Of a stretch of DNA of 64,000 nucleotides, positions 39,040-45,991 are shown in pieces. The position numbers were made by a program, and so were the translations under genes. Under the pieces are notes generated by a model. It saw nothing but the letters and a program-made list of their open reading frames with translations, ran no database searches and was not told where the DNA came from. Each line of letters begins with the position of its first letter. Position 1 is the first letter of the stretch. The DNA comes from Enterobacter kobei (GTDB taxonomy: Bacteria; Pseudomonadota; Gammaproteobacteria; Enterobacterales; Enterobacteriaceae): the NCBI RefSeq assembly GCF_001729765.1, contig NZ_CP017181.1, positions 124,001 through 188,000 of the forward strand, read 5' to 3'.

Positions 39040-39049
39040 TATTCCCGTC

Positions 39050-39203
39050 GGTTTGTTACACAGACCTAAAGCAGTTTAGTAAAGCAGTCCAGATTGTTAT
39101 CCATAGATACCCTTCGTTGTGACCCTTCCTTCATCGCTTAAAAATCTGTAACGCAATCCATCAAGCCGGAAGGCACAATATATTTGTTAATTAAGGTAAT
39201 TCT
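39050..39203 (+). promoter_or_regulatory. cspA long 5' leader (cold-shock thermosensor)
   Basis: About 154 nt of untranslated leader whose blocks match the E. coli cspA leader: ACAGACCTAAAGCAGTTTAG near the 5' end (cold box region), GATACCCTTCG in the middle, and AAAATCTGTAACGC and GGAAGGCACA nearer the gene. In E. coli this leader refolds at low temperature to expose the ribosome site and stabilise the mRNA. The similarity, gene identity and length support the same mechanism here. Confidence 0.8.
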
Positions 39204-39416
39204 ATGTCTGCTAAAATGACTGGTCTGGTAAAATGGTTCAACGCTGATAAAGGTTTCGGCTTCATCACTCCTGACGATGGCTCAAAAGACGTGTTCGTAC
39301 ACTTCTCTGCTATCCAGAACGATGGCTACAAATCTCTGGACGAAGGTCAGAAAGTGTCCTTCACCATCGAAAGCGGCGCTAAAGGCCCAGCAGCTGGTAA
39401 CGTTGTAAGCCTGTAA
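39204..39416 (+). CDS. cspA: Major cold shock protein CspA
   Basis: A 70-residue cold-shock-domain RNA chaperone, nearly identical to E. coli CspA. RNA-binding motifs RNP1 (KGFGFITP) and RNP2 (VFVHFSAI) are intact. TTAAGGTAAT precedes the start. Monocistronic, with its own promoter, long leader and terminator. The neighbourhood (yiaG, yiaF, ghrB) fits cspA rather than other csp paralogues. Confidence 0.96.
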
Positions 39417-39442
39417 GCTTCCAACCCAGTAGCACAAAATTC

Positions 39443-39470
39443 AAAAACCCGCCTTCTGGCGGGTTTTTTC
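39443..39470 (+). terminator. cspA terminator
   Basis: AAAAACCCGCC-TTCT-GGCGGG followed by six T, ending just before the convergent ghrB stop. Confidence 0.9.
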
Positions 39471-39474
39471 GTTT

Positions 39475-41820: not shown

Positions 41821-41871
41821 TTGGGTGCGGCCTGTTGCCCTCACCCTGGCCCTCTCCCACGGGGAGAGGGA
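41821..41871. repeat. REP-like palindrome, family A (uninterrupted IS110 target type)
   Basis: Contains GGGTGCGGCCTGTTGCCCTC followed by ACCCTGGCCCTCTCCCAC and GGGGAGAGGG, between kguK and kguT. Its left part (GGGTGCGGYCTGKTGCC-CT-CACCC) is the same sequence that the IS110-family element at 44790 has split, so it shows the empty target. Confidence 0.85.
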
Positions 41872-43668: not shown

Positions 43669-44685
43669 TTAACGTGCGGTGGAGCCGCGGACGATCAGCT
43701 CGCCGGAGAAGACCTGCTCGCGTACGGCCTCACTGGTGCCTTCAATACGACGAACCACTTGTTCTACAGCAGCATAGCCAATCTGCCAGGTGGGCTGTTT
43801 GAGGGTGGTAATGCCGACGCCAGCCAGCTCCGCCCACTCCAGTTCATCAAACCCCAGCAGACCGATATCGCTGCCCCAGTGCAGGCCAATACGCTTGAGT
43901 GAGCGGGCAACCTGCAGGGTTAGTGCCCCGTTGGCGGAGATAACGGCTTTGCGCATCCCGCGATGGCGCGTGTGGAACTGGCGTAGGGTATTGTCGAGCT
44001 GATCGGCTTCGTGAAGCGGCGTTTCGGCATTTTCGGCGATCACGCCAGGATAACGCGCCAGCGTGGCACGAAATGCAGCCAGCCGATCGCGTCGGGTATT
44101 TACCATGCCCAGCGGTTCGCTCAGAAAGAGAATCGCCTCGAAACCTTGTTCAATCAGATGCTCGGTCGCGGTCGTGGCAGCCTGGGTGTTATCCAGCCCG
44201 ACCACATCGCAGGCAAATTCCGGGATTTTACGGTCGATGAGGACCATGGGCAGGGAGGATTGCTGCAGACGGTTCAGCCCCTCTTCACGCATGCCCACCG
44301 CGTTGACCACAATCCCTTCCACCTGATAGCTGCGCAGCAGATCGAGATAGTGCAACTCCTGGTCGACCTCGTTGTTGGTATTACAGACCAGAGGCGTAAA
44401 ACCTTTTTCGCGGCAGGCGGCTTCGATACCGCTGAGCACGTTTACAGAGTAGGGGTTAGTGATATCCGCGATGATAAGTCCGATAAGGCGGGTGCGGCCA
44501 CGTTTGAGCCCGCGGGCCATCAGGCTGGGGCGGTAGTCGAGATCGGCAATAGCCTGTTCAATACGCGCCAGCAATGCATCGGACAATAGATGTTTCTCGC
44601 CGTTAAGGTAGCGCGAAATGCTGGTTTTACCGGTTCTGGCGGCTTTCGCCACGTCGCTGATGGTGGCCCGGGCTGGTTTGCTCAT
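43669..44685 (-). CDS. ptxS: LacI-family repressor, PtxS-like
   Basis: A 338-residue LacI-type regulator. The helix-turn-helix and hinge occupy about residues 1-60 (RATISDVAKAARTGKTSISR, LARIEQAIADLDYRPSLMAR), followed by a periplasmic-binding-type effector domain. Start ATG 44685 (MSKPARATISD); the frame continues upstream to 44808 into non-conserved and repeat sequence. It lies directly upstream of kguE on the same strand, and the palindrome between them is close to the known PtxS operator. In Pseudomonas, PtxS releases DNA on binding 2-ketogluconate. Confidence 0.85.
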   Translation of the reverse strand: MSKPARATISDVAKAARTGKTSISRYLNGEKHLLSDALLARIEQAIADLDYRPSLMARGLKRGRTRLIGLIIADITNPYSVNVLSGIEAACREKGFTPLVCNTNNEVDQELHYLDLLRSYQVEGIVVNAVGMREEGLNRLQQSSLPMVLIDRKIPEFACDVVGLDNTQAATTATEHLIEQGFEAILFLSEPLGMVNTRRDRLAAFRATLARYPGVIAENAETPLHEADQLDNTLRQFHTRHRGMRKAVISANGALTLQVARSLKRIGLHWGSDIGLLGFDELEWAELAGVGITTLKQPTWQIGYAAVEQVVRRIEGTSEAVREQVFSGELIVRGSTAR

Positions 44686-44748
44686 CGCTGATTTCCCTGA
44701 ATTTAGTGAGAATACCTTAACGGGAAAATCGGACGAATCAAGTAATTT

Positions 44749-44775
44749 GCCCGGTGGCGCAGCGCTTACCTGGGG
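44749..44775. repeat. REP-like palindrome, family B
   Basis: GCCCGGTGGCGCAGCGCTTA followed by CCTGGGG, immediately left of the family A unit that the IS110-family element has split. Confidence 0.7.
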
Positions 44776-44791
44776 TGCGGTCTGGTGCCCT
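44771..44791. repeat. Left piece of a family A repeat split by IS110
   Basis: GGGTGCGGTCTGGTGCC-CT, matching the left flank of the intact copy at 41822-41841. The rest of the unit is at 45960-45991, on the far side of the insertion. Confidence 0.8.
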
Positions 44792-44805
44792 TGTATGTTT
44801 AAAGT

Positions 44806-44994
44806 CACTTCAGTTACCCGTCAACAGACGGGTAAACTGTCACTGAGTTTGACCTGATGCCACAGCCCGTTAGCCCTCTGGGTTTCCAAGCCCGCGGGTG
44901 AGCTCCTGGCGTGGCTTCAGTTTTCCTGTTAACCCGAACAGCTGCCCGGGCGGCCTGTGCCAGCCCGTATATTACAAGGCCGGGAGACTCGAAC
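44806..44994 (+). ncRNA. Predicted bridge RNA of the IS110-family element
   Basis: The segment upstream of the transposase contains a 5' hairpin (TTACCCGT/ACGGGTAA, 44814-44835) and two internal-loop structures. The target loop is closed by CTGATGCCAC (44854-44863) with GTGGCTTCAG (44911-44920). It carries GCCCT (44873-44877), equal to the left target through the CT core, and GGGTGAG (44896-44902), the complement of the right target CTCACCC. The donor loop carries ACAGCTGC (44938-44945), equal to the element's right end, and TACAAG (44973-44978), the complement of the left end CTTGTA. A hairpin CGGGC/GCCCG (44947-44967) separates the donor guides. Bridge RNAs are established for IS110 elements; this instance is read from sequence only. 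Confidence 0.8.
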
Positions 44995-45930
44995 ATGACT
45001 GAACATACCACCGTTGGCATCGATATCGCCAAAGAGACCTTTGATGTATTTATCAGTCCTGACGGGATTTTCCTTCATCTGGACAATACCCCTCAGGGCC
45101 ATCAGCTACTCCTCGACGCCCTTTCATCCCGTGCCGTTGCACGCATCGTGATGGAAGCCACCGGGCGCTACCACAACCTTCTTGCTGCCACACTTGAACT
45201 TGCCGGGCTGCCTGTCGCCGTCGTTAACCCTGCTCAGGTCAAACACTTCGCACGGGCTCTCGGGACGCTGTTCAAGACAGACCCGAACGATGCCCGCATC
45301 ATCTGCGAGTTTGGCCGCAGAATGACACCGGATGTCAGACCCGCTCCGGACGAACAGACACAGCGTCTGGCCATGATGGTATCCCGCCGCCGTCAGCTGG
45401 TGGACAACAGAACCATGGAGCAGAACCGCTACGGCTCCTGCACTGATGAGCTTATCCGGACGGGCATCAAACGGCATATTGACTGGCTTAATGCAGAGAT
45501 AAAGGACACGGATGACGACATCGACCAGCAGATAAAAGTGATGCCGCTATGGCAGGAGAAAGTGAAGCTGCTGGAAGAAGTCAAGGGTATAGGACGGACA
45601 ACGCTGGCGGTTCTGCTGTCGATGCTGCCGGAGCTGGGACAACTTAACAGATGTAAAATCAGCGCACTGGTAGGCGTGTGTCCTTATGCCCATGACAGCG
45701 GAAAGATGAAAGGAAAACGATGTATCTGGGGAGGACGAAGTGCGGTGCGTGCAGCGCTGTACATGGCGGCAATGTCAGCGGTGCGTTATAACCCAACCAT
45801 ACAGGCTTTTTTTGAGAAACTGAGAAGCAAGGGAAAAGCCTTTAAAGTGGCGATGACAGCCTGCGTCAGAAAGCTGGTAACAATCCTGAATGCGATGGTG
45901 CGGGACAATAAAAAATGGGCGGCAGCTTAG
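44995..45930 (+). CDS. IS110-family transposase (DEDD recombinase)
   Basis: A 311-residue recombinase with start ATG 44995 after GGGAG. The RuvC-like domain has Asp10 in VGIDIAKETFDVF, Glu54 in VMEATGRYH, and Asp96 and Asp99 in FKTDPNDARI, the DEDD set. A coiled-coil region (about 150-185) is followed by the C-terminal Tnp domain with LLEEVKGIGRTTLAVLLSML and the probable nucleophile Ser249 in IWGGRSAVRAAL. All key residues are present, so the enzyme may be active. It acts with the bridge RNA encoded just upstream. Confidence 0.93.
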   Translation: MTEHTTVGIDIAKETFDVFISPDGIFLHLDNTPQGHQLLLDALSSRAVARIVMEATGRYHNLLAATLELAGLPVAVVNPAQVKHFARALGTLFKTDPNDARIICEFGRRMTPDVRPAPDEQTQRLAMMVSRRRQLVDNRTMEQNRYGSCTDELIRTGIKRHIDWLNAEIKDTDDDIDQQIKVMPLWQEKVKLLEEVKGIGRTTLAVLLSMLPELGQLNRCKISALVGVCPYAHDSGKMKGKRCIWGGRSAVRAALYMAAMSAVRYNPTIQAFFEKLRSKGKAFKVAMTACVRKLVTILNAMVRDNKKWAAA

Positions 45931-45959
45931 TCGTCAGATGTTGACTTTAAACACAGCTG

Positions 45960-45991
45960 CTCACCCCAACCCTCTCCCACGGGAGAGGGAG
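45960..45991. repeat. Right piece of the split family A repeat
   Basis: CTCACCCCAACCCTCTCCCA followed by CGGGAGAGGG. It continues the left piece at 44771-44791 and ends 9 bp before the yiaD stop. Confidence 0.8.

Follow-up and report, generated by a model that had tools for sequence, protein, structure and literature searches.

Background

IS621 has CT as its core. Bridge RNAs have been established for this insertion sequence and its relatives (PMC11208160, PMC11208158) and, according to the relevant parts of the first of these papers, a promoter is formed at the circle junction of IS621, IS110 elements insert in repeated extragenic sequences, and the inverted repeats of the IS110 group are 2-3 bp long. 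In the engineered tests described in parts of this literature, multi-kilobase cargo was inserted by IS621, and cargo was moved by ISEc11. For the IS1111 group, passages of the seekRNA paper (PMC11187229) describe subterminal inverted repeats of usually 11-13 bp and a long noncoding part after the transposase gene.

Here, we analysed a stretch of 64,000 nucleotides of Enterobacter kobei (contig NZ_CP017181.1, positions 124,001 to 188,000), referred to as the window, and found an intact-looking insertion sequence of the IS110 group that very probably moves by bridge RNA-guided recombination. This reading builds on the anatomy of the element, its guide matches, the target repeat, uninterrupted sites, and guides that change together with their targets; the circle, the RNA, its binding, and the strand exchange are taken over, by analogy, from IS621. 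The element resembles IS621 in its domain plan, in a predicted left-end RNA with a 5' stem-loop and two guide loops, in the order and strand logic of the guides, in the CT core, in a junction promoter (predicted here), and in its insertion into a repeated extragenic sequence. However, the recombinase is only distantly related to that of IS621 (140 bits), and guides and target repeat differ. The best solved relative, ISCro4 (9t56, 151.5 bits), is about as distant as IS621. Unlike the 2-3 bp given for the IS110 group in the part of PMC11208160 concerned, the window element has a perfect 12-bp subterminal inverted repeat, which is similar to those of the IS1111 group and falls within the 7-17 bp range used to define that group, but its long noncoding part lies before the gene instead of after it. 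A placement in the IS1111 group by means of the noncoding region was rejected, as the right end measures only 29 nt.

An IS110-group element in an intergenic repeat

The element and its ends consist of the following parts, in window coordinates:

44790..45961, plus strand, whole IS110-group element with both CT cores, 1172 bp (1170 bp when counted with one core)
44787..44791, plus strand, left target GCCCT including the core, read from the sequence
44790..44791, no strand, left core CT, from comparison with uninterrupted sites of GCCCTCACCC
44794..44799, plus strand, -10 like TATGTT, giving TTGACT-17-TATGTT with TTGACT at 45941-45946 when the ends join in a circle
44796..44807, plus strand, left arm of the perfect 12-bp subterminal inverted repeat, TGTTTAAAGTCA
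44995..45930, plus strand, IS110 recombinase of 311 aa, from profile matches and relatives with solved structures
45941..45946, plus strand, -35 like TTGACT, in the right end
45942..45953, plus strand, right arm of the 12-bp subterminal inverted repeat
45960..45961, no strand, right core CT
45960..45966, plus strand, right target CTCACCC including the core, inside a chromosomal repeat that extends to about 45989

The preliminary description, made from the sequence of the window, had called 44790..45961 an intact IS110-family element. Its family assignment is borne out by the domains, by the NCBIfam model NF033542, by the solved relatives IS621 and ISCro4, and by the ends and cores, and its intact appearance by a full-length reading frame of 311 aa with conserved residues and by guides, ends, and cores that are consistent with each other. 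The recombinase matched PF01548 (DEDD_Tnp_IS110) with 94.5 bits, PF02371 (Transposase_20) with 64.1 bits, and NF033542, which describes IS110 RNA-guided transposases, with 233.4 bits (cut-off 140). By sequence, only two solved relatives were found, ISCro4 (9t56) at 151.5 bits and IS621 (8wt6) at 140.3 bits. The element combines a DEDD RuvC-like domain with a Transposase_20 domain that has a conserved serine, which is a trait of the IS110 group. In an alignment of 11 recombinase sequences, including that of the window, D10, E54, D96, D99, and S249 were invariant, and S249 was aligned with a serine of ISCro4. These five are taken to be the catalytic residues, as in IS621.

The noncoding left end covers 203 nt from the core to the gene, on the 5' side of the latter, and the right end covers 29 nt, an arrangement typical of the IS110 group. 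The flanks read ...GGTGCC-CT-TGTATG on the left, and the right end runs ...ACAGCTG-CT-CACCCC. When the ends of the window element are joined, they give TTGACT-17-TATGTT, and 13 relatives showed the same spacing with slightly altered hexamers. The 12-bp subterminal repeat is perfect in the window element and, judged by eye, shorter in these relatives.

In its own genome, GCCCTCACCC occurs 81 times, versus 21 times for the pattern read backwards, and 29 of the first 30 of these 81 sites lie in one repeat, roughly CTGATGCCCTCACCCyrrCCCTCTCCCACrGGGAGAGGG, of which GCCCTCACCC is the conserved part. The element is inserted in such a repeat, between the gene of a LacI-type regulator and that of a yiaD-like lipoprotein, both named here from their translations. 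An uninterrupted GCCCTCACCC in a full repeat is found on the same strand only 3 kb from the element, at 41837-41846 of the window (L088). The longest reading of the regulator frame (43669-44808) begins inside the left end of the element; its start likely lies at an inner ATG at about 44685, so that the insertion is just upstream of the regulator gene.

The best 29 of 60 sister genomes all aligned across the joined flanks of the element (29/29), and an exact GCCCTCACCC was present near the junction in 24 of these 29 loci, the match of core and repeat being plainest in L117, L122, and L143. Many of these alignments are gapped, thus the intergenic region varies in length. Judged from the uninterrupted sites, insertion is scarless at a short core within a specific target. 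Sister genomes lack the element at this site, which means that it was either gained or lost at this locus.

Elsewhere, the element is scarce. It has a single copy in its own genome, and 60 other genomes of the genus contained no full-length copy, with four giving short matches only; both findings count against an element that moves. There was no DNA match to the element in the E. coli genomes and no match in the phage search, while the best-covering match in the plasmid DNA search was 64.4% identical over 80%. Viral contigs gave no match with a protein query and two distant matches, of 42% and 29%, with an alignment query, and a search of genome contigs gave two loci at 33-34%. Proteins 94-97% identical to the recombinase are encoded on contigs from other sources (P0004-P0014). 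Two sister genomes contain relics: in L012 there is a right end (...AAACACAGCTG-CT-CCCCCC) whose match is limited to 50 bp, and L013 has a 60-bp piece that resembles the 5' stem-loop of the left end.

The single copy in the genome, and 60 sister genomes in which only relics of 50-60 bp of related ends were seen, in two of them, could also indicate a decayed or domesticated IS110 element that has kept its anatomy and lost its movement. We consider this unlikely, as the reading frame is full-length with conserved residues, the guides are consistent with the ends and cores, contigs of other sources encode proteins of 94-97% identity, and the site is empty in sister genomes. The element may still be active, as the preliminary description had suggested.

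A putative bridge RNA in the left end

The left end contains the following predicted parts:

44806..44985, plus strand, predicted bridge RNA with approximate ends, from the fold (z -2.93) and an alignment of 14 left ends
44814..44835, plus strand, 5' stem-loop of the RNA, a 9-bp perfect inverted repeat
44854..44920, plus strand, target-binding loop with closing stem (44854-44866 with 44909-44920), changed on both sides at 6/12 stem pairs among relatives
44873..44877, plus strand, left target guide GCCCT
44896..44902, plus strand, right target guide GGGTGAG, complement of CTCACCC
44933..44984, plus strand, donor-binding loop, closed by CCC 44933-44935 and GGG 44982-44984, with an inner hairpin at about 44947-44967
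44938..44945, plus strand, left donor guide ACAGCTGC, identical to the right terminus
44973..44978, plus strand, right donor guide TACAAG, complement of the left terminus CTTGTA

The preliminary description had read four guides from this region (GCCCT, GGGTGAG, ACAGCTGC, and TACAAG) and a stem with 9 of 10 pairs that closes the first loop. All four strings are present at the coordinates claimed, and the stem was found as CTGATGCCAC and GTGGCTTCAG (44854-44863 with 44911-44920), extending by two further pairs beyond a bulge. The 5' sides of the loops correspond to the top strand of the left target and left donor, and the 3' sides are complementary to that of the right target and right donor, which is the known guide convention. 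The left end is predicted to fold into a 5' stem-loop followed by two guide loops, and the predicted RNA from 44806 to 44985 reached -71.3 kcal/mol, compared to a mean of -59.6 kcal/mol for shuffled sequences (z -2.93, 1/200 shuffles as low). A search with Rfam gave no family at gathering score at the element. Together, the sequence data support the view that an apparent bispecific bridge RNA is encoded in the left end.

It had also been proposed that four guides in this order are unlikely to occur by chance, and none of 200,000 dinucleotide shuffles of 44808-44994 contained all of them in order. The individual strings were found in 78,426 (GCCCT), 3,689 (GGGTGAG), 896 (ACAGCTGC), and 7,738 (TACAAG) of these shuffles, which multiplies to a frequency of 1.25e-6 before order is counted; GCCCT by itself is weak, being present in 39% of shuffles. 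The guide strings had been selected with the sequence already known, so that the shuffles serve only as an initial test, and the relatives provide the stronger one.

A conserved structure in the left end, on which the preliminary description had made its reading depend, is reflected in compensatory changes in the stem of the target loop. Among 14 aligned left ends, 6/12 pairs of this stem were changed on both sides. The number of cells changed on both sides was 15, versus 5.2 in shuffles (18 pairs tested, 0/500 as high), although kinship among sequences can exceed such shuffles, and sliding the stem partners abolished the pattern. The closing pairs of the donor loop never vary and therefore offer no covariation test, so that informative covariation is confined to the target loop.

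Plasmid relatives with distant right ends

At 51-57% protein identity, 26 plasmid records were found (H11-H36), of which 14 were examined. No right end was present close behind the transposase gene in the plasmid relatives examined. A right-end pattern of 21 nt, with at most 3 mismatches, occurred at 13 places in 12/14 records, W02 and W09 being the two without it, and the reversed control pattern did not occur (0). Each of the 13 distant right ends is preceded, on its own strand, by a left end. The published boundary method, as described in a part of PMC11208160, took 1,000 bp on either side of the gene, and a search of this kind would probably miss right ends at such a distance. The distance between left and right ends ranges from 2.8 to 30 kb: 2.8 kb (W11), 3.5 kb (W06b), 4.5 kb (W03), 7.1 kb (W04, W14), 7.3 kb (W07, W08), 8.27 kb (W01, W13), 9.05 kb (W12), 9.8 kb (W05, W06a), and 30.2 kb (W10). 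The transposase frame of W06b has 325 aa, and that of W01 stops at 268 aa, while it is 319 aa in the near-identical W13. For all 12 elements tested (all but W04), the joined flanks matched, over the junction, repeats that stand uninterrupted in four other plasmids, at 68-89% identity; the alignments for W06b, W07, and W12 spanned only 59-76 nt.

The genes between these ends belong to several types. W13 contains a Gabija system of GajA (777 bits) and GajB (769 bits), together with a restriction-modification pair made up of an EcoRII-type endonuclease and a cytosine methyltransferase. W03 contains the restriction-modification pair alone, with an endonuclease 96% identical to that of W13, and W12 contains an annotated AAA ATPase and helicase, an IS3 element, and restriction-modification genes, the ATPase being 27% identical to the GajA of W13. 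A SAVED effector, an oligonucleotide cyclase, and an E1-E2 protein, i.e., a CBASS system, are found in W14. A W04-type element that carries CBASS genes, and whose right flank shows the same misfit as that of W04, is located on a wastewater plasmid of E. coli (L146). By annotation, W05 and W06a carry genes for an aldoxime dehydratase, an amidase, and a nitrile hydratase; W07 and W08 carry genes for a methyltransferase, HlyD, a peptidase-ABC transporter, and a Clp protease (domains checked for W07); and W11 carries one hypothetical gene that matched no family. The span of W10 includes repA and duplicated genes, and this unit may be composite. Cargo units with defence or metabolic genes were recorded at L060, L061, and L075-L083, and their insertion into a plasmid repeat follows the guide logic seen in the window element.

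The distant right ends could be stray or belong to other elements, in which case the enclosed genes would not be cargo. W02 and W09, which lack a right end (2/14 records), the 30-kb span of W10 with its repA and duplicated genes, the right flank of W04 and L146, which does not fit, and the early end of the W01 transposase frame at 268 aa would agree with this. However, 13/13 right ends lie downstream of a left end on the same strand, with no reversed pattern in 14 records, the joined flanks of 12/12 tested elements align to repeats without an insertion (in three cases over only 59-76 nt), and the right guide and right target of W12 have changed together, which makes this explanation quite improbable. 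From their sequences, the plasmid relatives appear to carry blocks of anti-phage and other genes by means of an RNA of the same plan.

In 2018, a passage of PMC5971314 reported, for Pantoea ananatis AJ13355, IS110-family transposons that carry three cargo genes and have inverted repeats of 14 bp. They resemble the plasmid relatives in combining an IS110 transposase with cargo enclosed by inverted repeats. That passage describes no guide RNA or target logic, and the likeness does not imply a shared clade. In a literature search whose scope lay mostly outside preprints, subscription papers, and post-2024 work on bridge recombinases, we found no account of bridge-RNA transposons with natural cargo or defence systems.

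The target repeat of the plasmid elements recurs before plasmid genes, with copies near genes for DNA methylase, anti-restriction, and partition functions. Folded as single-stranded DNA, one copy (L058:2500-2730) reached -58 versus -40 kcal/mol (z -5.3, 0/200). Frpo sequences, the single-stranded promoters of leading regions, have such strong folds according to the part of PMC11541004 that describes them; the main text of that paper contains no mention of IS110, CBASS, or Gabija. By analogy, our guess is that the plasmid repeat might be a single-stranded promoter of the Frpo type.

Guides change together with their targets

Left ends and left flanks were read for 17 elements, namely the window element, L018, which is a chromosomal relative at 79%, and 15 elements on 14 plasmid records; this reading leaves out loci of about 37-46% identity (L023-L041). 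Right ends were read for 15/17, with W02 and W09, which have none, kept in the left-guide test, and W04 counted as a misfit. The right guide matched the right target at 7 of 7 positions in 13/15 elements, the exceptions being W07, with 6 and a wobble, and W04, which does not fit. There are three versions of right guide and target: GGGTGAG/CTCACCC, GGGAGAG/CTCTCCC (L018), and GGGGGAG/CTCCCCC (W12). For the left guide, 94/117 positions matched in 13 distinct pairs, compared to a permutation mean of 71.2 (sd 4.0; 0/20,000 as high), and without the core 75/91 matched, versus a mean of 53.4 (0/20,000 as high); these permutation values should not be taken as strict probabilities, as the 17 elements are related, with W01/W13 and W04/W14 near-identical, and permuting does not correct for this.

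The left guide of the window element gave the weakest match of the 17, 5 of 9, which counts against guided insertion. Two registers tie here, of which one is scattered and the other is the unbroken GCCCT. The latter stands two bases ahead of the inner hairpin's GGG, a register identical to that of L018; W02 and W12 match best one base off, and in the remaining plasmid elements the register lies directly before the GGG. Also counting against guided insertion is the right flank of W04 and L146, which does not fit the right guide. In W04 (L064) and L146, the right end is followed by CTTGTGTGATG in place of CTCACCC, a sequence similar to the beginning of a further IS110 left end.

The donor guides are near-constant among relatives, with CAGCTGCC, CAATTGCC, or CAACTGCC on the left and TACAAG or TGCAAG on the right, some of those in the plasmid elements pairing with the ends through one wobble. 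Relatives at other sites have other target guides that match these sites, in agreement with the expectation in the preliminary description that donor guides stay constant while insertion sites follow the target guides. That the matches are due to chance, or are a by-product of GGG/CCC motifs in RNA and target, is hardly credible: both loops do contain GGG...AGCCCG motifs, the target repeat is CCC-rich, the guides were picked after the fact, and GCCCT alone is common in shuffles, but all four guides in order were absent from 200,000 shuffles, and the guides track their targets across relatives even without the core (0/20,000 permutations).

Proposed mechanism and wider reading

If the window element behaves like IS621, it would be excised as a circle in which the right end is joined to the left end, creating the promoter TTGACT-17-TATGTT. 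This promoter would drive transcription of the left end and yield an RNA of about 180 nt, of which one loop would pair with both half-sites of the chromosomal target GCC-CT-CACCC and the other with the joined element ends ACAGCTG-CT-TGTA; strand exchange by the recombinase would take place at the CT core. Since the target forms the conserved part of a repeat with tens of copies in the genome, insertion tends to fall between genes.

In a wider reading, which we hold to be probable but with clear reservations, the window element would belong to a clade of bridge-RNA transposons and represent its compact branch on chromosomes. In the plasmid branch, multi-kb cargo would lie between the left end and a distant right end and would include what seem to be complete anti-phage systems (Gabija, CBASS, and EcoRII-type restriction-modification) as well as a metabolic operon. 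The RNA would direct this cargo to a repeat with a strong fold on IncF-type and Pantoea plasmids, in many cases next to genes for anti-restriction or partition. Few guide changes would suffice for the lineage to shift between the repeat on plasmids (such as GTCCT/CTCACCC) and those on chromosomes (GCCCT/CTCACCC, TCCCCT/CTCTCCC). We infer both the mobility of the cargo units and the direction of guide change between plasmid and chromosomal targets. If the wider reading is true, RNA-guided recombination would be a natural route for spreading defence genes, and bridge-RNA recombination would extend beyond minimal insertion sequences and deliver entire defence systems to sites on conjugative plasmids that are selected by the guides. 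The window element itself would add one more natural bridge RNA with four readable guides, and the apparent natural retargeting among its relatives, down to single nucleotides, could be useful for learning how guides evolve.

Other observations

Other IS110-family reading frames in the same genome were set aside as a different family. Six of these (334 aa) lie within 83 kb (G000:C1:3613922-3696696) and one more at C1:4163500, all 93-100% alike over 1.33 kb, and an additional one with a longer frame is located at 3617628. From their appearance, we assume that the 334-aa frames are of the IS1111 type. Finally, the window contains a cspA thermoregulator RNA at 39047-39472, which matched positions 1-428 of the 428 positions of the model with 363.7 bits.
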